From positions 1 through 31,207 of the IMG/VR virus record IMGVR_UViG_3300032896_000426: 31,207 bases of DNA; one strand, 5' to 3'. Under the pieces are notes generated by a model. That model ran no database searches. It saw only the letters and a program-made list of their open reading frames with translations, and had not been told where the DNA came from. Both the position numbers and the translations under genes were made by a program. The DNA comes from a virus. How positions within the stretch are numbered: position 1 is the first letter of the stretch; each line of letters begins with the position of its first letter. Positions 6,501-27,463 of the stretch are shown here, in pieces.

Positions 6501-8063
6501 CAGGTCCAGGCCTGCGGCGGCCAGCGGCGACGCGGACGACAGCCGCAGCCCGTAGGCGGGCGCCAGGCTCCCCGGCGTGGTGACCGCGGGCTGCGTGAGC
6601 GGACTGGCCAGCTTCGGGTCAAGGTCCCATCCCAGCGCCTGGGTGCCGCTGGCCTCATTGCCCGTCGCGGCGCGCCACGCGGTCAGCGACGGGTAGGCCG
6701 TGCCGCCCCAGTCGATGGCGAACGTCCCGGCGGCGGCGTAGTAGTCGTTCCCGGCCAGGTACAGCTCGCTCGTGGTCCACGCCTGCGCGGCCGACACGAC
6801 CGGGCCGCCGGACGCCCCGTAGAAGATGTTGTTGAGCACCTGGACGTTCTCGAGCGTGCCGTCGACGGGGAACGACAGGCACGGCGGCTGCACGGAGCCG
6901 TTCGGCTGGCTGACACACGTGTTGCCGTAGATCGCCAGGTTGCTCATGTTGCCGCCGGGGGTGATCTCCCCGTAGTACCCGGCGACGGCCAGCGGGTTCT
7001 GCCCGTTGCCCCACGTCAGGTTGTACCGCACGGTATTCGGCCCGGCGCCCCAGTAGGAGTCGGCGGCGCCGCCCCAGGCGAGGATGCCCGCGCCGCCGTT
7101 GCCGTAGCTGATGTTGTACTGCACGGTGCAGCCGGTGCAGTCGACGTCCAGGTCGAACCCGTCGCCGTCCGCGCCGGTCCCCGACCCGTTGCCGGACGAG
7201 ACGCAGTTCTCGATCACCGAGTTGCGGCTGGCGTAGAACCAGCAGCCGACCGGCCCCTCATAGGTGTCGCCGTTGTCCAGGCCGTTGCCGCTGGTCACGC
7301 AGTACTCGATCACCGACGCGTCACAGTTCCCGAGGATGATCCCCGACCCGGTGAACACGCCGGTGATCAGCGACGAGCCCAGGTTGTCATTCGCCGTGCA
7401 GTTGCTCACGACCACGCTGCGGTGGTTATAGGCCGGGGCCGAGGGATTGAACGCGGTGTTGCTGTAGGTGCAGATCCCGGCGTAGACGTTCCCGCTCGCG
7501 TCGCAGCCGGAGACCGTGATCCCGTTCCAGCCGTCGGCGGGGCCCTGGCCGCCGAACAGGATCCCGTACTGCCAGCCGCCCGACGCCTGCACGTTCTGGA
7601 CGGTGACCGCGGGCAGCGGGCCGGTGCCCGAGCAGAAGAACGAGATCCCGTCCCAGGCGCCGGAGTCAGTGCCCGGAATGGCCAGGTTCTCGATGGCGTA
7701 GCCGCCGACGTTGTAGCCGTAGACCGCATTGCCGGACGTGTTCGCGATCGTCGCTTCGCCGGTGCCGTAGGACCCGATAGTTATCGGCTGCGCCGCGGTG
7801 CCGGGCCACGTCAGCTCCAGAGTGGTGCCGGTCCACGCCTGACCGCCCTGGAACAGGACCGCGTCGCCCGGGTTCAGGCGCTGCGCGTTGACCCGGGCGA
7901 TCGTCTGCCATGGCGCGGCGGCACTGGTGCCGTTGTTACTGTCGGAGCCGGATGGTGACACGTAGTAGACGGTCCCGGACGGCGCCGGGGAAGCCGGGGC
8001 AGCCGTCAGCGCCCGGGGCAGCCGCAGCTGCCGCGGGACGCGAGCCGGCACCGGGATCTGCAT
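3576..8063 (-). CDS. giant minor tail protein with N-terminal beta-helix and LamG-like domains
   Basis: This 1495-residue protein is a mosaic. Residues about 30-555 begin YYVSPSGSDSNNGTSAA and continue with repeating N-G-I/V strand units (NCTANDN, NCVSSGNGSG), the right-handed parallel beta-helix of pectate-lyase and depolymerase tailspikes. From about 562 (LDLDCELNLGGLWTDVS) it reads as an actinophage minor tail protein with the NNRDGRFSPKNP motif. Residues about 670-860 and 900-1105 look like two concanavalin/LamG-type lectin folds (APVAYWPMEDAAG). The rest (1110-1495) continues the tail-hub part. The beta-helix probably binds or cleaves a surface polysaccharide, but I cannot identify catalytic residues. 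The ATG at 8063 starts one base after the upstream stop. Confidence 0.82.
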   Translation of the reverse strand: MQIPVPARVPRQLRLPRALTAAPASPAPSGTVYYVSPSGSDSNNGTSAAAPWQTIARVNAQRLNPGDAVLFQGGQAWTGTTLELTWPGTAAQPITIGSYGTGEATIANTSGNAVYGYNVGGYAIENLAIPGTDSGAWDGISFFCSGTGPLPAVTVQNVQASGGWQYGILFGGQGPADGWNGITVSGCDASGNVYAGICTYSNTAFNPSAPAYNHRSVVVSNCTANDNLGSSLITGVFTGSGIILGNCDASVIEYCVTSGNGLDNGDTYEGPVGCWFYASRNSVIENCVSSGNGSGTGADGDGFDLDVDCTGCTVQYNISYGNGGAGILAWGGAADSYWGAGPNTVRYNLTWGNGQNPLAVAGYYGEITPGGNMSNLAIYGNTCVSQPNGSVQPPCLSFPVDGTLENVQVLNNIFYGASGGPVVSAAQAWTTSELYLAGNDYYAAAGTFAIDWGGTAYPSLTAWRAATGNEASGTQALGWDLDPKLASPLTQPAVTTPGSLAPAYGLRLSSASPLAAAGLDLAGFGISPGSQDFFGDALAVPLSAGAYQAAAAAPFPASPLDLDCELNLGGLWTDVSTYVYQREGQQPAVTLTRGRQDESSDQANPGRSTWEWNNRDGRFSPKNPVSPYYGLLGRNTGVRFSVPAQNNYLRLEDDAVSYVSCPPATGLSITGDIDIQLQLHLSDWRNTLLASKWNSASSYRSWVLVLNSTGTIGLVWTPDGSSIASATSSIPLPYGTAAVRATLQVSTGTVTFYTGTSLGGTWTQLGAAQVYGSTSIFGGGTGSAPVTIGYNSAFSESWFNNGATPASLLGGVSEFRLYSGIGGTLEAGPVFSAQSAGATSFADAQGNTWTLNGTAAISSRDYRFHGEMSAQPPKWDVTGADMAVAAQAGGVLRRITQGNAPLDSPMKRAITLLAGSKAPVAYWPMEDAAGATVFGSGIGGLPMQISGSPSLADSSDFACSAPLPEVNGASFSGAVSYAGSWTDNQVFFLLDIPSGGEANGAAICAVSTTGTITTLALFYESGGGLNVTGYNSAGTGVFNETVAFGAAGNPILISIALQDAGGGNITWHVDGWAPGAATPDGASGTVSGTVGKVTGVQFAPTGALTSTAIGHCAVLTAYQQLYDLFSYTTPNGVPTGALSAWTGEPAAVRFARLAAENGYQARIIGAPSGSAAMGAQAIDTLSNLLQACEDADAGQIFEPRQILALGYRTLASMYNQAVAVTLDYAQSEPGGVNGSADDSGLDPTYDDALTRNDWSLTRTAGTGSDGATYQAQLNDGSAMSISPPPVGVGDYADTLDCNVELDSQLADLAWWKVHTGTVDEARWPVIPVNLARPQIQDNSLYYPVLSADIGDFLEMANAPDLVLYDPVQQLAWGMKEALGGLHHTAEWNAVPESPYQVFEAGTSHIATDGTALGSAASSTATSLSFATDAGYPLWTTSAADFPFDVMIAGERVTVTDITGASSPQAATVTRSVNGVVKSQAAGAAVTVYPAAVIAL

Positions 8064-8064
8064 G

Positions 8065-8646
8065 TCAGTTCAGCGGGATGACCGTCAGCTGGTACAGCTG
8101 CGCGAAGTTGGACGCCGACGCGGTCCCGAACGTGCCCCACGCCTCCACGTAGTTGTCGACGGTCGTGTTCACCGCGACGTCGCTGACGTTGCCCAGCGCG
8201 TACACCGACGCCGCGGTGGTGGCCGCGTTCCCCGCCGCGCCGACCGTCAGCTTCCCGCCCACCGTCAGGTAGCCGCTGCTGCCCACCCCCTGCAAGGTGC
8301 AGTCGGCGTCCAGGTCGAACAGGGCACCCGACGCCCCCGACGGCATCGTGACCGCCCCGGTCGCCGCCAGCACCGTCCCGAAGCTGCCCTGCGTCGTGTC
8401 CAGCGACACCGCGAACGTGAACGTCGGCGTGCCGGTAGTGGACAGGAACCCCTTGGCGATGATCTTGAACGCCTGCCCGACACGGTCCTGCTCCCAGAAC
8501 GACGGGAACAGCCTGCACGGCTCGCCGCCCGTCGCCGACGACGCCAGCGACATCAGCGCCCGGCTGCTGCTGTTGGACAGCAGCGCGCCCGACAGCGGCA
8601 TCGAGTACAGCGCCTCCGCGTAGCCGCCCTTGGTCTGCCCTCTCAC
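8065..8646 (-). CDS. minor tail protein, distal-tail type
   Basis: The 193-residue product follows the tape measure directly and precedes the tail-tip protein, the usual place for a distal-tail or adaptor subunit. The sequence is strand-rich: FKIIAKGFLSTTGTPTFTFAVSLD in the middle and AWGTFGTASASNFAQLYQLTVIPLN at the end, a pattern shared by actinophage minor tail proteins. The GTG at 8646 is chosen because AAGGAG lies about eight bases upstream. The longer frame to 8703 would overlap the tape-measure end and looks non-coding. Role inferred from order and fold; no catalytic motif seen. Confidence 0.7.
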   Translation of the reverse strand: MRGQTKGGYAEALYSMPLSGALLSNSSSRALMSLASSATGGEPCRLFPSFWEQDRVGQAFKIIAKGFLSTTGTPTFTFAVSLDTTQGSFGTVLAATGAVTMPSGASGALFDLDADCTLQGVGSSGYLTVGGKLTVGAAGNAATTAASVYALGNVSDVAVNTTVDNYVEAWGTFGTASASNFAQLYQLTVIPLN

Positions 8647-8659
8647 CTGCGATCTCCTT

Positions 8660-11600
8660 TCACGACCGGTACGCCACCTTCCGCATGAACATGTTCGGGT
8701 CACCGCCCTGCGCCCGGACCCCGTTCTTCAGCCACGTCCAGAACAGGCTGTCCAGCCCGTTCGCGCTGCTGCCCTGGATCTGCACCACGATCGGCTGCGG
8801 GCCGCCGCCCCCGGCCGCATAGGCGCCGTAGCCGCCGCGCGGGGCGAGCGCCCCGGCGACGTGGTTCATGGCGGAGGTGACGTCCGGCTTGCCGGCCAGG
8901 ATGCCCGCCGCCATCATGCGGGGGATCGACCGGCCGGAGTTCATCGGATCCCCGGCGCCGGACAGCGGCCCCTTCTTCGCGGGCGAGAACGGCAGGAAGT
9001 TCTTGATCTCGCCGACGACGGAGCTCATCGTCGAGCCGACGTCGCCGATCATGTTGGTGATGCCGTGCAGCAGCCCCCGGATCACCGACTCCCCCGCGCT
9101 GACCAGCAGCGAGCCGAGGTCGCCGACCGCGTGCAGGATCCGGCCCGGCAGCCCTTCGAACCAGTGGACGATGTTGTCCAGGCCGGAGACCTCCCGGGAC
9201 AGGAAATCGTCGAAGGTGCGCCGCACCCAGGCGATCAGGTCGCCGTACCAGCGGGCCGCGGTGCCCACCACGTCGTCGAACATGGACTCGAACCAGTGCA
9301 GCACGTCGCCCGCGAACCGGCCGATGTCGCCGAGCACGCCGGAGATGAACCGCTCCGCGTCCTTCTTGATGGTGTCCCAGTGCTTCGCGATCTCCAGGAC
9401 CGCGACGGCGATCGGGCCGAGGAGGATCGCCAGCAGCAGCTCCCAGTGGGACTTCACGAAGTTCACCACCGTGGAGACCGCTTTCGACACGGCCCGGTAG
9501 ACGTCGTCCCACGCTTCCTCGACGCCGTGGACGATCGACTTCCAGTGCGTGACGATCTCGTAGACGGCCAGCGCGACCGCGGCGACGACCAGGACGATCC
9601 CCGCGGTCATCAGAGCGTTCGCGGCGATCCACGCGCCGGCCGCTGACAGCGCCCCCGCGACGTTGGTAGCGACGACGACGGCGACCTTGGCGACGTTCGT
9701 GGCGACCCACACGGCCGCTGAAGCGATCATCTGGCCGGCCGCCACCGCCCACCGGGCCACTGCCTGTCCCGCCGCCACGGCGTAGGAGGCGGCCGCCTGC
9801 CCGGCCTTGACCGCCGACTGCGCCGCCCACTTCGCGCCTGAGGCGATCATCTGCCCGGCCGACGTCGCCCACGACCCCGACGACTCCGCGGCCGCCGTCT
9901 CGTTCGCCGCCGCCACCTCCGCGGCGTCTGCCTCCTGCTCCGCCGCCGCGGTGTCAGCCGCCGCGGCCGCCTCATCCGAGGCCGCCGCTTCTTCCTTTCC
10001 GGCGGTCTTCGCCTCGGCCGCCGCCTTCTTCGACGACGCCGCGGCCTTGTCGTTCGCGCCGGCCAGGGAGCTGATCTTCTTGATCGCCCCCTCGACGCCA
10101 TCGGCGACCTGCTTCATGGCGTCTTTCATGCTGGTCAGCGCATGAACGGCCTTGGTGCCGACCGCCCCGGCGAGGACGCCGCCGACCACGACGGCGAACG
10201 CGATCGCCGCCGCCTTGTTGCCCGCGATGAAACTGAGCATGGACGACAGCGGGCCGAGGATCGCGTTGACCGCAGGCAGCAGGACCATCCCTAGCTGAGT
10301 CCCGGCCGCCTCAACCGCCTTCACGGTGCTGCCGAGTTTGAACGCAGTCGTGGCGCTCGCCGCCCCGAAGCCGGCAACCTTGCCGCTTGCTCCGTCCGCA
10401 GATGCCGAAATCGCTTTTACGTTCGCGTTGAATGTCGCCGCATGGCTGCCGGTCAGCATCAGCCCGACGTTCAGGCCGGTGGCGCCCCCCAGCATCTTCG
10501 ACATGGCCGCGGCATAGGTCTGCGCCGCCGGGGTGCCGGAGGCGAGCAGCTGGTTGAACCCGTTGGCCTTCCCGGCCACGGACGCGAACTGCAGCCCCAT
10601 TTCCCGGGCCTGCAGCCCGGAGCCCTTGAGCGCGTTGTTGAAGTCGGTGTAGCTGGCCTTCCCGTCCAGGTAGGACTTCGCGATCCCCTGAATCGACGGC
10701 GGCAGTTTCCCGAGCATCTCCTCCGCATCCGCCGCGGCGCTCTTGCTCTGGTTCATCGCGTTGGCGATGACGGTGCCGCTCGGCCCCATCTTCGCCAGGA
10801 CCGCGTCCGACAGCTCGGAGATGGTACCGGTCAGGCCCTTCTTGCCGAGCTGGCTGGCGACGGTGGTCGAGTTGAGCCCGAACATGGACATCTCGTTCGT
10901 CGCCACGCTGGTCGGGTTGGCCAGCGACCGGATCGTGGAGGCGAGGTCCTGCGTGCCCTGGCGGGCCGAGATGCCCATCGACGTCATCGTGGCCAGCGCG
11001 CCGCCCACCTCGCTGTAGCTGATCTTGTTCGCTGCCGCGATCGGCAGCACGGCGCTCAGCGACCCGGCGAGGTCCTGGAACGTCATCTTGCCGCGGGAGA
11101 CCGTGGCGAGCATCTGGTTCATCATCGATGTGGCGCTGACGGTCGCCTCGGCGCTGGTTTTGGTTTTCATGCCGTAGGCGTTGATCCCGGACGTCAGCGC
11201 ATTCGTCACCTCAGACAGGTCGGCGCCCTCGGCCTGCGCGCCCTGCGCCGCTGCCTTCAGCACGCCCAGGCCGCCCGCGCCGGTGATCCCCGCGGAGCTG
11301 ATCATGTACAGGCCCTGGGCCAGCTGCGACGTGCTCGTGTTGGTCGTCGACGACAGCGCCAGGATGCCCTGCTGCAGCATCCCCAGCTGGCTCGCCGACT
11401 CGCCCGCGGACGTGACCAGCGTGGTGGTCTGCTTCTGGAAGTCCATCGCCGACTTGACCGCCAGGCCCATGCCGACCGCGACGCCCAGGCCGGCCAGCTT
11501 CATCTTGGAGCCCATCCCGGCGAACGCGCCGCCTGACTCCTCCGCCTTGACCCCGGACGCGACCTGCTCATCGCCCGCGGTCTTCTCCATGGCCGCGACC

Positions 11601-18703: not shown

Positions 18704-19147
18704 TCAGGAACTCGCGCCCGTCAGCGGCAGCAGGTTCGCCGGGGTCCGCTGCACCGCCAGGTCGTGCACGATCGCCATCACCGTCGCCGTGCCCGACCCC
18801 GACGCCGTCAGCGACACGTAGTTCGCGCCCGCGGGCAGGTCGCTGGAGTCGACGTAGACCGTCGCCGACGACCCGGCCGCCACCGTGAACGTGTCCGCCG
18901 CCGCCTGCGTCTCCGTCGTCCAGCCGTCCGCGCCCGACTGCGACGCGTTCACGTACCACTGGGTGATCGTCGCCAGGACCGACGGCGACCCGGCCTCGCC
19001 CGACGCCGACTTCAGGGTGAACGTCTCGGTGTCCGTCGTCGCCGTCACCACGAACGTGACGCCTGCCGCGTTCTCCAGCGCGATCAGCGTGCCGCCCGCC
19101 ACGGGAACGACGTCGAACAGGCGCCCGTGTCCCTCCATACCAGCCAT
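18704..19147 (-). CDS. capsid decoration-type protein
   Basis: The 147-residue product follows the capsid genes directly. It is a strand-rich Gly/Thr/Ser/Val protein (LFDVVPVAGGTLIALENAAG, TFVVTATTDTETFTLKSASG, YVDSSDLPAGANYVSLTASG) of the type found as head decoration or stabilisation subunits. There are no cysteines or membrane segments. The ATG at 19147 is preceded by AGGAG with about eight bases of spacing. Position and composition support decoration; the family is not identified with certainty. Confidence 0.6.
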   Translation of the reverse strand: MAGMEGHGRLFDVVPVAGGTLIALENAAGVTFVVTATTDTETFTLKSASGEAGSPSVLATITQWYVNASQSGADGWTTETQAAADTFTVAAGSSATVYVDSSDLPAGANYVSLTASGSGTATVMAIVHDLAVQRTPANLLPLTGASS

Positions 19148-19158
19148 GTGATGTTCTC

Positions 19159-20289
19159 CTAACTTGCCTTCGGGCCCAGCACCACGACCGGGCTCACCGT
19201 GCTGCTGTCACTGCTGTTCTCCGGGGTCACCGGTCCCGGAACGAAATACCGGCCATCCACGCGTGCCCGGAACCGGTAGTTAGTGACGTCCTGGACGAAC
19301 CCGGAGCCGCGTCCGGAACGGTCCACCGTCAGCTCCATCCGGTCACCGATCAGGTAATTCCGGAAATCGGCCAGCGCGATATCCCCGGTGTCGCCGAGCG
19401 CCGGTGAATGGTCGGAAACGAACGCGGGCAGCCCGAGAATCGACGGGCCGGTGTCGTGGCCGTCGCCCAGGTTCAGCCACGGGGGCAGCGCCGCCGGGGC
19501 ACCGGCCGTCGCCGCCGAGCCGCCCGGCACCAGGTACGCCTGCAGGACATCGGTCAGCACCGACTCCGACACCAGCCAGCCGATATCGGTGACGCCCGCC
19601 TGCAGCCCCGCCGCGAGCGCCGCCGGGTGAAGCGCGCTGGCCATGCCGGCGATGTCCGCCGACCCCACCGCGCCGGACGCGGCCCGGGCTACCGTCACCG
19701 CGCAGCCGGCGTTCAGCACTCCCTGAGGCTGTCCCGCCCCCGTGCCGCTGATGAAGTAGTCCTCCTCCGCCCAGCTGTAGCCGAGCGCCACCACGCGGGA
19801 GAAGAAGTCGCCGAGCGCCCCGGCCGCGTCGGAATCCAGCTCATCCGGCACCCCGACGAAGGCCGCCAGCTTGTTCGCCTCCAGCAGCACCCGGCCGAAT
19901 GACGGGCTGGACGACGGGATCGACGCGTCATTCTCGGTGAACGCGAACGTGAGGCCGCCGAGCGCCTGGCTGCCGGAATCCTGGGTGGCATTGTCCAGGA
20001 CAGGCACGCCGAGGCGCAGCGACCCCATCGGCAGCACCATCGCCCGCGGCCGGATGACCGCGGGCGTGACGTACGCCATCACCTGGGCGCGCAGCTGCTC
20101 GGGCACCAGGAAACCGCCCTCGGACGGGACGCGTTCCGTCCAGGCGTTCATGATGAACTGCCGCGCCGACGCGTCTTGCTGGTCGTAGACCGCCGCCAGG
20201 AACGCATGCCAGGACCGGGCCCACGGCTGGCCGTCCAGCCGCGCGCCCGGGGCGTCCGCCCTGTAATGCGGCGAGTCGCGCAGATTCAT
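19159..20289 (-). CDS. HK97-type major capsid protein, short paralogue
   Basis: At 376 residues this has the HK97 capsid fold: SEGGFLVPEQLR at the start of the core, LPMGSLRLGVPVLD, ANKLAAFVGVPDELDSD in the spine region, EDYFISGTGAGQPQGVLNAG, and NYLIGDRMEL plus FRARVDGRYF at the C-terminal end. The N-terminal region is only about 50 residues and lacks a delta (scaffold) domain. It aligns end to end with the 505-residue paralogue immediately upstream, and only six bases separate the genes. It could form pentamers or another specialised position in the shell. The ATG at 20289 is the obvious start. Confidence 0.88.
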   Translation of the reverse strand: MNLRDSPHYRADAPGARLDGQPWARSWHAFLAAVYDQQDASARQFIMNAWTERVPSEGGFLVPEQLRAQVMAYVTPAVIRPRAMVLPMGSLRLGVPVLDNATQDSGSQALGGLTFAFTENDASIPSSSPSFGRVLLEANKLAAFVGVPDELDSDAAGALGDFFSRVVALGYSWAEEDYFISGTGAGQPQGVLNAGCAVTVARAASGAVGSADIAGMASALHPAALAAGLQAGVTDIGWLVSESVLTDVLQAYLVPGGSAATAGAPAALPPWLNLGDGHDTGPSILGLPAFVSDHSPALGDTGDIALADFRNYLIGDRMELTVDRSGRGSGFVQDVTNYRFRARVDGRYFVPGPVTPENSSDSSTVSPVVVLGPKAS

Positions 20290-20295
20290 CTCCGG

Positions 20296-21813
20296 TCAGG
20301 AGCCCGTGGTGGTGTCGAGCAGGACGTACGGCGACAGGGTGTTCTCCGATTCGTTCGCCGGGGTGATCGCCGACTGCACCCACGGGCGGCCGTCGAGCCG
20401 CTCAATGACCCGGTAGGCGACCATGTCGTCCTGAAACTTGTACTCGGCAGAGCTGGCCACCTGCATTGCCTGCCGGTCGCCGACCAGGTACTTGGACAGG
20501 TCGTAGAGCCCGAGCGACCCGGCCTGCGTGGTGCTGCTGATCGACGGCACCTTTTCGGAGATGATCCCGGGACGGCCGAACAGGGTGAACGTCCGGCCGT
20601 CCTCGATGCCGCCCGGCGCGCCGTCGATCGCCGACATGCCCGGCAGGAACACCGGAGGCGCGATCGCCGTGCCGCCCGGTGCCACGTTCAGCTGCGCCAG
20701 CTGCGGGATCGTGTCCGGCGCGGCCAGCCACACCGATTTCTTCAGCGACCCGGGCCACATCCGGGAGAACACCGCCGCGATGTCCGCGAACACGATCTCG
20801 TGCGCGGTCGCCGACGACTGCGCCACCGTGACCGCCCCCGGCGCGTTGACCAGGCCGAGCGGCTGGTTGACGCCGTCGCCGGTGATGAACGCCAGGTCGC
20901 GGAAGAAAGCCAGTGCCTGCGGGAAGAACGTGTTGAACCACACGTCCATCGCCGTCACCGAGTCCTGCAGCAGCTCATTCGGGATCTCGGTGTAGGCGGT
21001 GAGCTTGTTCGCGATCAGGACGAGGCGGGAAAACGACGGCGCCGACGTGCTCAGCGCCGCGCCCTCAGCCGTCCACGCGGCGGAAACGCCGCCGAAGACG
21101 CTGCCCACGTGGGTCGTGTCGTCGATCGTGGGCAGCGGCACCCGCAGGCTGTCCATCGGGATCGTGGTCGCCTGCCCGCTGACCACCGACTCCTCAAGCG
21201 TCAGCGCCAGGATCGTCGACCTGAGCGTCTCCGGGACGAGAAAGCCGCCCTCGGCGGGAATCCGCTCGGACATGCCCGCATTCCGGATCTGCAGCGTGTT
21301 CGCGATCTTCGCCTTGAGCGCCAGCAGCCTGGCGGCAAGCTCGCTGTTGCCGTCCCTGGCCGCGACCGCCTCCCCCTTCAGGGTCGCCCAGATGAACTCG
21401 CGCAGGCTGTCGCCGTACTCGGCGTCCTCCAGCTCGGCGCCCATCGCCGTCGCGCTGAACAGGTGATGCTGCTCGAACACCGCCGCCGCGTTCCGCAGCC
21501 GCGACCTCGACAGCGCCTGCTGCCTCTTCTGGCCGCCGAACGCCGCAGCCGCGCCCGGATGCCAGCCCTCTGGCGGCCGCGCGCCGAACCGGTCGGCCTG
21601 GTCGCGCATGAAACCCTGCAGGCCCGCCTGGACCTGCTCGTCAAACTGCTTCCGCAGGTCCCCGCCGTCCGCAGTGCCGGCGAACTTCTCGACGTAGTTC
21701 CTGACCAGGCCGGGGAACGAGCCGTCCTCAAGCACCGCCTTCAGCCGGGGCTTGTCATGGAACAGCTCTTCGAGCTCGTCTGGGGCCTGCGGGGTGGCCG
21801 CTGGGGTTGTCAC
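20296..21813 (-). CDS. HK97-type major capsid protein, long paralogue with delta-like domain
   Basis: The 505-residue protein carries a helical N-terminal region of about 170 residues (KPRLKAVLEDGSFPGLVRNY, helices to about 170), probably the delta or scaffolding domain removed by the prohead protease. The HK97 core follows from about 185: AEGGFLVPETLRSTIL, PMDSLRVPLPTIDD, ANKLTAYTEIPNELLQDS, DLAFITGDGVNQPLGLVNAP, SKYLVGDRQAMQ and AYRVIERLDGRPW. The GTG at 21813 overlaps the protease stop (GTGA). With the protease just upstream this is the main shell protein, probably the hexamer former. Confidence 0.9.
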   Translation of the reverse strand: MTTPAATPQAPDELEELFHDKPRLKAVLEDGSFPGLVRNYVEKFAGTADGGDLRKQFDEQVQAGLQGFMRDQADRFGARPPEGWHPGAAAAFGGQKRQQALSRSRLRNAAAVFEQHHLFSATAMGAELEDAEYGDSLREFIWATLKGEAVAARDGNSELAARLLALKAKIANTLQIRNAGMSERIPAEGGFLVPETLRSTILALTLEESVVSGQATTIPMDSLRVPLPTIDDTTHVGSVFGGVSAAWTAEGAALSTSAPSFSRLVLIANKLTAYTEIPNELLQDSVTAMDVWFNTFFPQALAFFRDLAFITGDGVNQPLGLVNAPGAVTVAQSSATAHEIVFADIAAVFSRMWPGSLKKSVWLAAPDTIPQLAQLNVAPGGTAIAPPVFLPGMSAIDGAPGGIEDGRTFTLFGRPGIISEKVPSISSTTQAGSLGLYDLSKYLVGDRQAMQVASSAEYKFQDDMVAYRVIERLDGRPWVQSAITPANESENTLSPYVLLDTTTGS

Positions 21814-23153
21814 GTGAATGCCTCCTTCAAGGCGTTGCCGAGCTTCTCCAGGTCCACCCCGGAGGTCAGGTTCATGTGCTGGCTGTTGTCCGCGTCCTCA
21901 TCGCCGTGGCCGGCGTCCTTGAGGTGGGCGCGCAGGTGCGCCTCGACGCCCGCGCGGTCGCCGCCGGGGATGTCCGCGCCGGACAGCCTGGCCAGCCCGT
22001 TGTTGCAGGCGTTCACGTTCGCCGGGGCGCCCTTGGTCTTGTGGTGCGGGAACTTGTAGTTGCCCTTCTGGTCATCGGCGTCGTCATCGCCCTCGCGGTG
22101 CGGGGCAGACGCCGCCTCATCGGATTCCCAGGCGTGGCAGTACTCCAGGACCGTGTCGTCGTTCGGCATCGCCGCCACCGCGGCCGGGCCGTCCCACGCC
22201 TCATCGACCGTCGCCGTGTGATGGACCGGGAGCGCCTTGTCGGCCAGCGGCATCGACTCGATGCCCAGCACCCGCCGCCGCGCGCGGTCTCCCGTGGCGC
22301 CGTCGTCCTGACCGTCCTCGTCCGCGCCGTCGTCATCGCCGCTGTCCGGCGAGTAGGTGCCGGAGCCGCCGCAGCCGGGGCACTTCATGCCGTTCTTGCC
22401 GGTGCCCGGGTGCTTCAGCCGCCCGCTGCCGCCGCACGTCTTGCACGGCGCCCCGCCGCCCTCGCCGTCCGCGGCGCGCACCCAGGACGGGACGCGCGCG
22501 AACATCGACAGGTCAAACGACGCGGCCGTACCCTCCGGCGCCGGGCGCTCCAGCAGCCGGTCAGCCAGGCCGGCCTCGACGGCCTCGGCCGCCTTGTACC
22601 AGGTCTCCGCCTGCATCGCATCCCGCCAGCCGGGCGCGGGCTTGCCGGTGTGCGCCGCGTAGATGTCGGCCAGGTTCCCCGACACCTGGTCGAGCAGGTC
22701 CGCGACCTCCCGCATGTCCGCCGCGTTGCCGATGCAGATCCCCGACGCGTCGTGGATCATCAGCATCGACCCCGGGCTGACGACGCGCTCCTTGCCCGCC
22801 TGGGCGATGAAGCTCGCCGCGGACGCCGCCAGGCCGTCCACGACCGTCGTGACCGGGCCCGGGCGCTGCGCGATCGCGTTGTAGATCGCGATCGCGTCGA
22901 AAACGTCGCCGCCCGGGCTGTTGATGTGCACGTGCAGCTCGCGGGACGCAGGGAGCGCGGCGAGCTGCGCCACGAAGTCGCCGGCCGACACGCCGTCGCT
23001 GAACCACGAGCCGCCGATCTCGTCGTACACGTCGACCCGGGCCGGGCCGTCGCCGTCGTCGAGGTTGACGATCCGGTACCAGGGGCGTCCTTGCGCCGCA
23101 GGACGTCCCGCGAGGGCCTTCAGCCGCCGGATCTGCTCGGCACGGTTCATCAT
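21810..23153 (-). CDS. ClpP-type prohead protease with DnaJ-like zinc motif and C-terminal domain
   Basis: The 447-residue protein has a ClpP/S14 protease fold at residues about 25-205: HINSPGGDVFDAIAIYNAI, the catalytic serine in GLAAS (S111) and a histidine in MLMIHDA (H134). Residues 237-266 carry two CxxCxGxG units (C237/C240 and C258/C261), a DnaJ-type zinc motif. The rest (about 300-447) is a conserved-looking domain (PVHHTATVDEAWDGPAAVA, NACNNGLARLSGADIPGGDR) with an acidic linker. It probably matures the capsid by removing the delta-like domain. The ATG at 23153 overlaps the portal stop (ATGA). It is much longer than usual prohead proteases (about 200-250). Confidence 0.87.
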   Translation of the reverse strand: MMNRAEQIRRLKALAGRPAAQGRPWYRIVNLDDGDGPARVDVYDEIGGSWFSDGVSAGDFVAQLAALPASRELHVHINSPGGDVFDAIAIYNAIAQRPGPVTTVVDGLAASAASFIAQAGKERVVSPGSMLMIHDASGICIGNAADMREVADLLDQVSGNLADIYAAHTGKPAPGWRDAMQAETWYKAAEAVEAGLADRLLERPAPEGTAASFDLSMFARVPSWVRAADGEGGGAPCKTCGGSGRLKHPGTGKNGMKCPGCGGSGTYSPDSGDDDGADEDGQDDGATGDRARRRVLGIESMPLADKALPVHHTATVDEAWDGPAAVAAMPNDDTVLEYCHAWESDEAASAPHREGDDDADDQKGNYKFPHHKTKGAPANVNACNNGLARLSGADIPGGDRAGVEAHLRAHLKDAGHGDEDADNSQHMNLTSGVDLEKLGNALKEAFT

Positions 23154-25105
23154 CGGGCCGCTCCAACCGCGTTCCAGGCGGCCAGCCGCCGCCGCAGGTC
23201 ATCCATCCGCGCCGACGGGCCGTCACCGCGGCCTGCGCCGCCCCCGGCCGACGGCGTGAACTGGTGCTCGTGCATGGTTTCCCAGTCGCCGTGATCGGCA
23301 TCGACCGTGCCGATCCACGCCCGCGGCGCCTCACCGAGCTCCGCTTCCGCTAGGTACCGGTGATGACCGTCGATCAGCTTCAAAAGCGGGTCACCCGGCG
23401 TCTTGACCAGCAGCAGCGGCTTGAGTTTCTTGCCCTTCCGGCGCCGCGCCACGAACTCGGCGACGTGACCGGGGTCGGCGCCGTCCATCCACTGCAGGTC
23501 CGGCTCGATGTGCTCCAGCGGCACCCGCACCGGCCCTGTCCAGGTGGCGTGATGCATCCACGCCATCGCGCTCGCCGGATAGTCCTCCGCGACCTGCTCG
23601 AACACCTTCGCGGCCGCGTTCTTGTCCATCACCTGAGGCGCGCCGCCGCCCGCGGGAAGCGCCCGGCGGGGCGCCATGACGCCCAGCGCGCGGGCGTCCA
23701 TGTCCGCCCACAGCGGCGACCCCCACCCGGCCGCGGACCGCAGCGCCCCCTGCGCGGCCGCCGGGGCGGCAGGAGCCGCATCAGTGGCGGCGGGCGCGGC
23801 CAGCGGAGCCGTCCACCGCGGCGGCAGCGCCGGCTGGCTGCTCAGCGTCAAAGCCACCTTCATGTCCGGCAGCCCCACCGCCGCCAAGACGTCGTGCTGG
23901 TCATAGCCCGCCGTCACGAACGCCAGCGCCGCGTTCGCCTTCGCCGTCAGCTCCAGCGCGTCCGCTTCCCGGTTCTCGACGCGCGGGTAGATGAAGTCGA
24001 ACTCCACGTCCTGCGCGGTCTTCCCGAACAGCGGCAGGAACTGGGTGTTGAGGACGTTCCGCCACCGCTTCAGGCGCGGCTCAACCTTCCACGAGGCGAA
24101 AACCTCCTGCCCCGTCTGCGCGTTCGCCCGGTTCACGTCATCCGACACGCCGGTCATGACTTTCGCCATGCCGAGCGCCTCCCGGATGATGTCCCGCATC
24201 GTCTCGCGGAGCTTCGCGAAATCCATGTCCTTAACTGAGGACTTGTCGTTCGGCACCCACGTGACGCCCGCCTCGAGGACCGCGATCCGGTGCGCCCGCG
24301 CGACCCCCCGGTGCGTCTCCCGCCACTGGGACACGATCCGGTTGAACTCGCCTTCCTCGAACGAGTGGTCCAGCTGGATCACGCCGCCCGGCTCCGCGGA
24401 GTTGACGAAGAAGTTCCGGTTCCACTGGCCGGCGTAGTCGGCCGCCTCGATGTCGGTCAGCACCGACTGGACCGGGCCGCAGCCGCCGTACAGGTCCTCC
24501 GGGTCGCTGAACCGGTTGAAAATGACCTCGGTCGGCAGCAGCGGCACCTGCTCACGGCCGTCCGGTGAGGTGTAGATCCAGCCGGCGAGGAACTTGTTGC
24601 GGTCCGGGACCGGCGTCATCCGGTCCGGGCGCACCGGCCACAGCCCCAGCGGGATCTTCGACGCGCCCTCCGCGAAGTCCACGACCCAGTGGCACTTCCC
24701 GGTCTGCGTCATCCAGATGTCCGACAGCTCGAACAGCATGAACCGGTCGAAAATGGGCTTCCTGATGCCGTCCACGACCACGCTGGCGGGCATCTCCAGC
24801 ACGTTCAGCGCCGCGTGCACCGTCACCTGCTTGCGCTGGTCGCTGCCCCGGTCCGACGTCGTGTACCGCTGCTGCGGGCCCGGCTTGCGGAACAGCACCC
24901 AGTCCTGCTCCGCCACCGACTCCGCGATCAGCCCCACATTCGAGCGGACCGTGCCGTTCGTCTTGTAGGTGCGGATCAGCGCCAAGTCCGGGTTCGCGCC
25001 CGCCGTCATCCCCGGGGCAATCATCATCCCGCCGCCCATCGGCACCGGCGCGCTGCCCTGGGCGGCGTTCCGCGGGCCCAGCATCATGCCCAGCAGCGAG
25101 CCCAT
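23150..25105 (-). CDS. portal protein with C-terminal ParB-like domain
   Basis: The 651-residue product starts at the ATG at 25105, which overlaps the upstream TGA. Residues about 40-440 are an HK97-type portal: YKTNGTVRSNVGLIAESVAE, IFDRFMLFELSDIWMTQTGK, FNRFSDPEDLYGGCGPVQS, LRETMRDIIREALGMAKVMT. A Pro/Ala linker leads to a second domain at about 500-610 with VPLEHIEPDLQWMDG, KLKPLLLVKTPGDPLLKLID and DGHHRY (from 579), the pattern of ParB/Srx-like nuclease or NTP-binding domains. The portal forms the dodecameric DNA gate; the ParB-like tail could act on DNA during packaging or after entry. The downstream protease overlaps it by four bases. Confidence 0.87.
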   Translation of the reverse strand: MGSLLGMMLGPRNAAQGSAPVPMGGGMMIAPGMTAGANPDLALIRTYKTNGTVRSNVGLIAESVAEQDWVLFRKPGPQQRYTTSDRGSDQRKQVTVHAALNVLEMPASVVVDGIRKPIFDRFMLFELSDIWMTQTGKCHWVVDFAEGASKIPLGLWPVRPDRMTPVPDRNKFLAGWIYTSPDGREQVPLLPTEVIFNRFSDPEDLYGGCGPVQSVLTDIEAADYAGQWNRNFFVNSAEPGGVIQLDHSFEEGEFNRIVSQWRETHRGVARAHRIAVLEAGVTWVPNDKSSVKDMDFAKLRETMRDIIREALGMAKVMTGVSDDVNRANAQTGQEVFASWKVEPRLKRWRNVLNTQFLPLFGKTAQDVEFDFIYPRVENREADALELTAKANAALAFVTAGYDQHDVLAAVGLPDMKVALTLSSQPALPPRWTAPLAAPAATDAAPAAPAAAQGALRSAAGWGSPLWADMDARALGVMAPRRALPAGGGAPQVMDKNAAAKVFEQVAEDYPASAMAWMHHATWTGPVRVPLEHIEPDLQWMDGADPGHVAEFVARRRKGKKLKPLLLVKTPGDPLLKLIDGHHRYLAEAELGEAPRAWIGTVDADHGDWETMHEHQFTPSAGGGAGRGDGPSARMDDLRRRLAAWNAVGAAR

Positions 25106-25287
25106 CAGGGTATCTCCGTGTCCAGCGGCACCGCGCCGGGCGGATAGGCGCTCTCCGGCAACGGCGGAAGCGGCACGCCCGGCCATGCCATCCGGGGCTG
25201 CGCTTCCAGGTCTTCGCGCATCCTGCGCAGGCGCGGCGATGGGTCGAGAGACAGGTAACCGAAGCCTTGGAGGATGCGCCGCAGCAC
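25105..25287 (-). CDS. 60-residue hypothetical protein
   Basis: The GTG at 25287 follows the stop of the preceding gene by two bases and gives 60 residues starting VLRRILQGFGYLSLDPS. The rest (MREDLEAQPRMAWPGVPLPP) is Pro-rich and ends in an acidic tail. Its TGA overlaps the portal ATG (TGATG), so the two are coupled. No family recognised and too short for a confident role. It may help produce the portal or be a minor packaging protein. Confidence 0.5.
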   Translation of the reverse strand: MLRRILQGFGYLSLDPSPRLRRMREDLEAQPRMAWPGVPLPPLPESAYPPGAVPLDTEIP

Positions 25288-25623: not shown

Positions 25624-25983
25624 GTGGTGACGATGGCCCCGCTGCGCGACGCGAGCGAGCTGCTCTACCCCGCCGTCTACGCCACCGTCATGTCCCTCGG
25701 CATCGACCTCGGACCGGACAACGCGGGCGGCAAGGACAGCGGCATGGCCAAGCTCGCCCTGCGCCTCGCCCGCGTCATCGACCAGGCGCCCGACGGCAAA
25801 GCGCAGGCATCCGCGCTCTGGCACCTCGGCGCCGAGCTCCACAAGGTCCTCGAATCACTCGGCGCATCCCCCGCCGCCCGCGCCGCCATCAAGCGCGGCG
25901 CCAGGGACAGCGACGGCAAGGGCAAGCCCAAGACCCAGCTCGACATCATGCGCGAGAACCGCGCCCGCAGAACCCGTGCCTAA
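25624..25983 (+). CDS. terminase small subunit
   Basis: The 119-residue protein resembles actinophage small terminase subunits: APLRDASELLYPAVYATVMS, helical MAKLALRLARVIDQAP, a helical ALWHLGAELHKVLESLG with ASPAARAAI, and a basic tail. It recognises the packaging site and loads the large subunit onto DNA. It overlaps the large subunit by eight bases. Candidate starts are GTG at 25624, GTG at 25627 and ATG at 25633; AGGTGGTG upstream of the ATG makes 25633 quite likely. It is transcribed away from the portal operon, unlike in most related phages. Confidence 0.8.
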   Translation: MVTMAPLRDASELLYPAVYATVMSLGIDLGPDNAGGKDSGMAKLALRLARVIDQAPDGKAQASALWHLGAELHKVLESLGASPAARAAIKRGARDSDGKGKPKTQLDIMRENRARRTRA

Positions 25984-27463
25984 AAAGCTCCTCGGATCCA
26001 CGAGGCCACGGCTGTACACCCCCGAGCTCCGCCGGCTCGACCGGCGCACCTCCCTCGGATACGAGGCCGCCGACTTCGCCGAGCAGGTCATCGGCGTCCC
26101 GCTGCTGCCCTGGCAGCGGTGGGCCGCCATCCACGCCATGGAACTCCTGCCCGACGGCAGCTTCCGGTTCAGGAAAGTCCTCATCATCGTCGCCAGGCAG
26201 AACGGCAAATCCCACCTGAAACGGGCCGTCAGCCTCTGGCGCATGTACATGGAACCCAAAACCCAGGTCTACGGCGTCGCCCAGGAAGTAAAACTCGCCC
26301 GCAAGCAGTGGAACTTCTGCCAGGAAGCCATCCACGACTCCCCCCAGCTCGAGGCCGAATGGGGCGACGTCCGCAACGTCAACGGCGACGAGTACTTCTG
26401 GCTCGCCAACAACTCCCTCTACGCCATCGGCGCCGCCAGCCGCAAATCCGGCCGCGGCAGCAGCAACGACGAAGTCAACATCGACGAACTCCGCGAGCAG
26501 CGCAGCTGGGCAGCCTGGGCAGCCCTCTCCAAGACCATCAACGCCCGCCCCAACCCCCAGATCTGGTGCATGAGCAACGCCGGCGACGACCAGTCCGTCG
26601 TCCTCAACCAGCTCCAGGACGCCGGGCACGCCGGCCGCGACGAATCCCTCTGCGTCCTCGAATGGTCCGCCCCCGACGGCTGCGAACTCGACGACTGGAC
26701 CGCCATCCGCCAGGCCAACCCCGGCCTCGGCTACATCATCAGCGCAGCAGCCATCCGCAGCGACCTCGCCAGCGACCCCCCCGAAATCTCCCGCACCGAA
26801 ATCCTCTGCCAGCGCGTCCCCAACCTCAACGCCGCCATCGACCCCCAACGGTGGGACGCCTGCGCCGACGCCATGGGCACCCTCGCGCACTCCCGCGGCC
26901 GCATCGCCGCCGTCTTCGACGTCGCACCCGACGGCCAGCACGCCACCCTGGCGGTCGCCGCCCGGCTCGCCGACGGCCGCGTGCGAGCCGAGATCGCCGC
27001 CGCGTGGAAGAGCACCGAGGAAGCACGCGCCGAGCTGCCCGCGAAACTCGCCGAGATCAGGCCCGCGGCGTTCGGATGGTTCCCCGGCGGCCCGTCAGCA
27101 GGCATGGCCACCACCCTCCGGCCCCTGGCCATCAGGTACAACCGCCACCTGCACACCGTCAAGCGGCGTCCGGGCGACCCTCCGCCGCCGCCAGAAGACG
27201 GCACCATCACCGGAGCGCGCGCCAGCGAGGTCTGCCAGGAACTCGCCGACCTCGTCAAAGCCCTCCGCGTCGTGCACCCCGCCGACCCGCTCCTCGACGC
27301 CCACATCCGCGGCGCATCCAAGCTGTACACCGGCGACGGATGGAGATTCACCCGCAAGGGCGAAGGGCACGTCGACGCCGCCTACGCAGCGGCGGGAGCC
27401 GTGTCGCTCGCGCTGACCATCCCCGAACCGCGCCGCGGCGGAATCAGGGGATTCGCCGCCTGA
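25976..27463 (+). CDS. terminase large subunit
   Basis: The 495-residue ATPase-nuclease has Walker A VARQNGKS (72-79), Walker B NIDE with the catalytic glutamate (168-171), and a C-terminal RNase H-type nuclease half with an acidic strand VFDVAPD (D316, D320) and a late aspartate in HVDAAY. It pumps DNA into the prohead and cuts it. The GTG at 25976 overlaps the small subunit. Length and motif order match actinophage TerL proteins. The gene runs on the plus strand against the structural operon, and 219 bases separate it from the next, convergent gene. Confidence 0.93.
   Translation: MPKKLLGSTRPRLYTPELRRLDRRTSLGYEAADFAEQVIGVPLLPWQRWAAIHAMELLPDGSFRFRKVLIIVARQNGKSHLKRAVSLWRMYMEPKTQVYGVAQEVKLARKQWNFCQEAIHDSPQLEAEWGDVRNVNGDEYFWLANNSLYAIGAASRKSGRGSSNDEVNIDELREQRSWAAWAALSKTINARPNPQIWCMSNAGDDQSVVLNQLQDAGHAGRDESLCVLEWSAPDGCELDDWTAIRQANPGLGYIISAAAIRSDLASDPPEISRTEILCQRVPNLNAAIDPQRWDACADAMGTLAHSRGRIAAVFDVAPDGQHATLAVAARLADGRVRAEIAAAWKSTEEARAELPAKLAEIRPAAFGWFPGGPSAGMATTLRPLAIRYNRHLHTVKRRPGDPPPPPEDGTITGARASEVCQELADLVKALRVVHPADPLLDAHIRGASKLYTGDGWRFTRKGEGHVDAAYAAAGAVSLALTIPEPRRGGIRGFAA

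Follow-up and report, generated by a model that had tools for sequence, protein, structure and literature searches.

Tandem HK97-type capsid paralogues, only one with a delta-like domain, and a predicted division of labor in a phage shell

Head genes of the window

The window, by which we mean the whole stretch of DNA analysed here, is a 31,207-base record of an uncultivated bacterial virus with 70% G+C. Two major capsid genes lie six bases apart at the coordinates claimed for them in an earlier note on this DNA, on a strand (minus) which that note had left unstated (Table 1). Portal, ClpP-type protease, long and short capsid genes follow one another in an order that, from portal through protease to capsid, matches HK97-type modules, and the maturation protease directly adjoins the capsid gene, as is characteristic of HK97-type assembly; the GTG start of the long gene overlaps the protease stop. 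By analogy, the ClpP-type protease is a candidate for delta-domain cleavage. The 147-residue protein encoded beyond the short gene gave no matches in Pfam or PHROG.

Table 1. Features of the head and tail region of the window, with coordinates (residue numbers where so stated) and the basis of each assignment
Feature	Coordinates	Strand	Basis or remark
Portal protein	23150..25186	-	PF04860 8e-38, PHROG 2662
ClpP-type head maturation protease	21810..23153	-	PF00574 5.6e-33, PHROG 2976 3e-80
Shine-Dalgarno AAGGAGG of long gene, within protease gene	21821..21827	-	
Long major capsid protein, 505 aa, GTG start	20296..21813	-	PF05065 3.2e-41, PHROG 10 5e-43
Delta-like N-terminal region of long copy, residues ~1-112	21478..21813	-	Alignment and model
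N-arm of long copy, residues ~113-188	21250..21477	-	Alignments; homologous to short N-terminus
HK97 core of long copy	~residues 189-505	-	
Six-base gap, long to short gene	20290..20295	-	GGAG abuts ATG
Short delta-less capsid paralogue, 376 aa, ATG start	19159..20289	-	PF05065 2.7e-28, PHROG 10
N-arm of short copy, residues 1-56, motif YR-DAPGA-LDGQPWARSW	20122..20289	-	
147-aa protein, function unassigned	18704..19147	-	In relatives, homologues follow the short copy or sit between the two capsid genes
Tape measure, among tail genes	12151-8660	-	
Large protein with beta-helix stretch, among tail genes	8063-3576	-	

Several neighboring features were recorded in passing. The large terminase (PHROG 9, 1e-68) is a plus-strand gene at 25976-27463, the portal and capsid genes being on the other strand. 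The portal carries a C-terminal extension (residues ~559–628, including the stretch IDGHHRYLAE) with a weak ParB-like match (PHROG 1033, 5e-6) and none in Pfam; related locus L010 likewise has a long portal (648 aa), against ~475 aa in L006 and L007. The protease contains a zinc-ribbon-like CxxC stretch (residues ~235–265) and, behind its ClpP domain, a long acidic C-terminal part.

Paralogy and predicted folds of the two proteins

The two proteins resemble each other from end to end, as had been proposed: BLASTP aligns them with 120/339 identities (35%, E 7e-53), well past chance, and all of the motifs singled out in the earlier note (EGGFLVPE, PM-SLR, NKL-A, G-G-QP-G-N, YL-GDR and the matching C-termini) are present. 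Both exceed the cut-off of the Phage_capsid family PF05065 (142 bits for the long copy and 99.6 bits for the short, against a threshold of 24.2). The alignment and the trees described below identify them as true paralogues. Strong alignment extends from EGGFLVPE to the C-terminus; ahead of this the N-arms (long 'A-GA-L', short 'DAPGARLD') align weakly from long residue ~113, such that long residues 113–188 are matched to the N-terminal ~56 residues of the short copy. Alignment from this point implies that the short protein begins approximately where a delta-cleaved, mature long protein would begin.

AF2 models of moderate confidence were obtained for both copies (pLDDT 73.6 for long, 70.7 for short). 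The long model places helices at residues 11–19, 21–30, 33–45, 50–76, 94–103 and 109–115 (residues 11–76 and 94–115 being mostly helix), and those falling within residues 1–112 agree with the expectation for a delta domain. The helical extra region had been put at ~170 residues; its helical character stands in the model, whereas its length has to be reduced, only ~112 residues being without counterpart in the short copy. By analogy with HK97 and phi12, we infer that this region serves as a delta domain and is cleaved. Using VIA-align, the long model matches the RcGTA capsid (6tsu, Z 18.5) and HK97 prohead I (8fqk, Z 16.9, aligned from residue 135), and the short model matches the RcGTA capsid (6tb9, Z 17.5), Mycofy1 (9lw6, 16.5) and HK97 (1ohg, 15.4), in addition to both encapsulin chains (9bje, Z 15.8; 9bix, Z 15.4). 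The top region of a viral-structure search with the short model contains HK97-type capsids only, which gives no hint of a place in the shell, and a sequence search of solved structures returned RcGTA, Mycofy1 and T5-type capsids with weak to moderate E-values. Structure prediction, which the earlier note had suggested as a check, thus gives an HK97 fold for each copy, and we take both to be predicted HK97-fold capsid proteins. An unrelated fold for the short copy, an outcome which that note had regarded as fatal to its model, is rejected by the structural matches of the short model.

That only one copy bears a delta-like domain is borne out in the window, where the short reading frame opens just two codons before its ATG; with a stop so close upstream, a hidden delta domain is impossible on this copy and that option was discarded. 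At 37 short loci examined (L075 lacking the N-arm motif and L073 matching the pattern as a variant), a plausible start lies no more than ~42 residues from the N-arm motif; the proteins start either 12–13 residues ahead of the DAPGA motif or, mostly, ~30–36 ahead. At many of these loci the open frame extends upstream inside the overlapping long gene; only a nearby stop (as in, e.g., the window, L005, L027, L028, L033 and L072) strictly excludes a start further up. The emptiness of 111 of 112 delta columns in the short proteins arises partly by construction (15/26 short rows began at the blast match, not at the start codon) and is not used as evidence.

Distribution, history and selection among relatives

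IMG/VR was scanned with each protein and with alignments, and the loci recovered were then profile-searched. Two capsid copies are present in 39/87 related loci (a count that includes the window and the near-duplicate pairs L005/L014, L032/L034 and L075/L076), and two further contigs outside the 87, L164 and L191, also carry the pair. Within the two-copy clade of the tree every locus with >1.7 kb beyond the long gene carries a short gene, any locus without a visible one having ≤1.7 kb of DNA at this side; the 19 loci that lack a second copy despite >5 kb after the long gene (some of them near-copies of one another) all fall outside that clade. No short copy was found in the 50 related loci of cellular genomes (47 titled actinobacteria), 49 of which have one long open frame. 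The remaining one, L160 (Streptomyces sp. SW4), has its long-type capsid gene split into two overlapping frames, like a decaying prophage. In phage records each match occupies a single place (221/221 with the long query, 55/55 with the short), and a search of genome contigs for prophages using the short alignment gave 188 pattern matches and no relatives. A separate case is L179, an 18,710-base contig whose one capsid gene is of the "second copy" type; the locus includes 6 kb upstream of it, and a long copy is absent from the whole contig.

The tandem layout proved dispensable to the pair, most sister phages having genes between long and short. In the window's own subclade of long proteins the gap is ≤40 bases in 13/18 loci (often a one-base stop–start overlap) and 0.3–0.9 kb in the others; in the sister group the short gene lies 0.7–2.6 kb downstream of the long one, with L028 (3 bases) as an exception, and where genes are readable this interval holds homologues of the 147-residue protein and other small genes. 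A conserved set recurs there (L030:3187-4798, also L053, L055 and L064), comprising the 147-aa homologue, a 'KIS--AG-TGG...RKDG-Y' protein, a cysteine-rich protein and one of ~87 aa. The first two gave no Pfam matches; the 'KIS--AG-TGG...RKDG-Y' protein could be a decoration protein.

Phylogenetically, the long proteins separate from the short ones, as expected of paralogues. A split of 73 long proteins from 34 others has support of 100/99, the short and second copies form one clade (100/99), and long and short together are set apart from the capsid proteins of other phages (100/100). The position of the duplication depends on the outgroup: eight outgroups, two of which are long branches, place the root between long and short (with a Bradyrhizobium row, L106, straying into the longs on a long branch), whereas six cleaner outgroups nest the short clade among the longs, beside the single-copy L065, and a single clade of longs is not rejected (AU p 0.43). 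The second copies L067, L073 and L075 sit at the base of the longs with eight outgroups or in the short clade with six. In L008 the short copy (7809-8936) occupies a part of the short tree other than the one predicted by its long partner, and this mismatch indicates that the short gene can probably be exchanged independently. The 147-aa neighbor in L008 is 59% identical to that of the window, others being about 30–38% identical, and from these sequences it looks as though the short gene was swapped together with its neighbor.

Inactivating changes, which the earlier note had considered incompatible with a two-subunit shell, were not encountered: both frames are intact and under purifying selection. 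Relative to the nearest relative (L004), dN/dS is 0.26 for the long gene and 0.27 for the short, with the remaining pairs at 0.27–0.72, the estimate being limited by third-position G+C bias; internal stops are lacking in 24/24 pairs. On these two grounds a pseudogene reading was rejected. Of the alignment columns, 58 are conserved across both families and 15 hold a different fixed residue in each; conservation is private to the longs at 64 columns and to the shorts at 49.

Signals for translation are unequal. The window's long gene has a strong AAGGAGG, whereas the GGAG of its short gene stands directly against the ATG, making a weak ribosome-binding site, and short genes elsewhere mostly have a weaker site or a mere stop–start overlap. 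Shine–Dalgarno energy favors the long gene in 25/28 pairs (means of −12.0 for long and −6.6 kcal/mol for short genes; p 2e-5 by the Wilcoxon test), with three reversed, L011 strongly so, and in 18/24 pairs the long gene has the higher GC3 (p 0.02); both p values are uncorrected for relatedness and, the pairs being mutually related, too small. The stronger site on the long gene suggests that the short product is probably the minor one, although translational coupling could raise its expression despite the weak site.

A proposed two-component shell and its precedents

We propose that this module would build a two-component HK97-fold shell with the long protein as its main subunit. The ~112-residue helical N-terminus of the long protein would act as an in-built scaffold (the delta domain) during procapsid assembly, to be cut off afterwards by the ClpP-type protease from the gene immediately upstream. 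The short protein would be made scaffold-free, starting at about the mature long N-terminus; probably unable to organize a shell alone, it would join assembly on the scaffold of its partner in small amount, most likely at the vertex pentamers (11 pentamers, 55 subunits), leaving the hexamers to the long protein. Retention of the pair across a whole group of related viruses suggests a special, minor place in the shell for the short protein; for a scaffold-less, probably less-expressed protein that persists beside a scaffold-bearing partner, the role of minor shell subunit is the best reading. A minor component would most naturally sit at the vertices, and two solved precedents with a pair of HK97-fold proteins in one shell, T4 gp24 and SaPIbov5 Ccm, have it there; no sequence feature points specifically to a pentamer, the Ccm precedent is inexact in that Ccm keeps a shorter delta domain of its own (87 aa), and single-copy relatives build heads without a short protein, such that the wider family can do without a dedicated pentamer. 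On balance we lean, if only somewhat, towards the short protein being a minor component of the shell, assembled together with the long protein on the scaffold of the latter, with pentamers, by analogy, as its likeliest place. The division of labor suggested in the earlier note gains partial support from paralogy, a delta-like domain on one copy, intact and selected genes, clade-wide occurrence, family-specific residues and unequal translation signals, with the hexamer and pentamer roles themselves standing as a prediction.

Random co-assembly of the two proteins into mixed capsomers, giving shells of variable composition, is in our estimation unlikely: a phage shell needs a reproducible volume, and the 15 positions fixed differently in the two families point to distinct niches. 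Such mixing nevertheless has an HK97-fold precedent in an actinobacterium, the two-component Family 2B encapsulin of Streptomyces lydicus (PMC12407261), and the encapsulin chains 9bje and 9bix match the short model, a resemblance which shows the fold only. We would give still less credence to a determinant of head shape or size, by which the short protein would occupy a subset of hexamers or set curvature and so yield a prolate or otherwise altered head; Ccm, in filling the pentamers, does make the otherwise prolate phi12 heads isometric (PMC8569155), and the solved structures of the structural relative Mycofy1 treat its top cap and bottom cap separately (9lw6, 9lw8), but most of our contigs are fragments and their genome sizes are consequently not comparable.

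A weak translation signal would also suit a protein with no place in mature virions, acting as an assembly regulator or as a decoy, for example against capsid-hijacking satellites, which use capsid homologues to redirect assembly (PMC8569155). Retention of the complete predicted fold including its C-terminal strands, purifying selection, and the constant position of the short gene inside the head module in the loci examined render such a role improbable. There is very little to recommend a redundant duplicate heading for loss, or an artefact of contig assembly: diverged second capsid copies do exist, as in Caulobacter phage Colossus (PMC3556154), but here the pair occurs in loci from many metagenomes with no internal stop in any pair compared and dN/dS below 1, and its recurrence in 39/87 loci refutes an assembly artefact.

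Returning to a short protein placed at the vertices, a broader scenario can be sketched to which we assign a little under an even chance: that an uncultivated, probably actinobacterial clade evolved a dedicated pentamer subunit independently of T4, through duplication of a scaffold-fused gene and loss of the scaffold from one copy, such that a "pre-matured" vertex protein enters only via scaffold-bearing partners. If true, this would be a genetic separation of scaffold-bearing hexamer from scaffold-free penton. The choice of a capsid protein between rings of five and of six, and the part played by the scaffold in each, is a long-standing question in phage assembly; a clade with the scaffold on one paralogue only would make the need for delta in hexamers and in pentamers separately testable, with natural variants from >30 contigs and single-copy relatives, including the cultured Dagobah, as comparison material.

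Among known systems, the nearest isolate is Streptomyces phage Dagobah (MT711977), which along with related actinobacterial prophages shares the portal–ClpP–capsid order and a long copy with an N-terminal extension (36–37% identity to our long copy over nearly the whole length); unlike the window, it has a single capsid gene and no short copy. Caulobacter phage Colossus (gp36/gp81), by its published description, has a diverged second major capsid gene, but ~21 kb away (PMC3556154). In the literature searched, which took in few subscription papers, no description was found of such capsid paralogues in actinobacteriophages, nor of an HK97-type lineage with a delta domain on one paralogue only or of a clade-wide delta-less penton candidate. 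One protein of phage RazzB bears the annotation "major capsid hexamer protein" (PMC13014141). Papers on JBD30 and P1 deal with subjects other than capsid paralogues.

The Family 2B encapsulin of S. lydicus resembles our pair in that two HK97-fold shell proteins co-assemble, and differs in being a T=1 cellular compartment with irregular mixing (PMC12407261); encapsulin shell genes lie outside a phage head module, whereas those of the window are accompanied by portal, protease, terminase and tape measure. In mixed shells of phi12 and the satellite SaPIbov5, Ccm is confined to pentamers and phi12 CP to hexamers (PMC8569155). As described there, this is an HK97-type capsid with a delta domain and without a separate scaffold, in which a 24%-identical homologue fills all pentamers; unlike our short protein, Ccm is satellite-encoded and loses by cleavage a delta domain of its own (87 residues), for which the window's short frame leaves no room, and here one phage carries both genes. 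T4 also has two HK97-fold relatives in one phage, gp23 forming hexamers and gp24, a minor vertex protein, pentamers; T4 uses a separate scaffolding core (PMC3012670), where in the window just one of the paralogues carries a fused delta-like domain. According to a 2025 paper, no virus other than T4 has two HK97-fold proteins that play separate structural roles (PMC12407261). Capsid paralogues with divided labor are thus already known from T4; what is new here, as judged from the papers searched, is a delta-like domain on only one of the two, in a pair whose division of labor is predicted.
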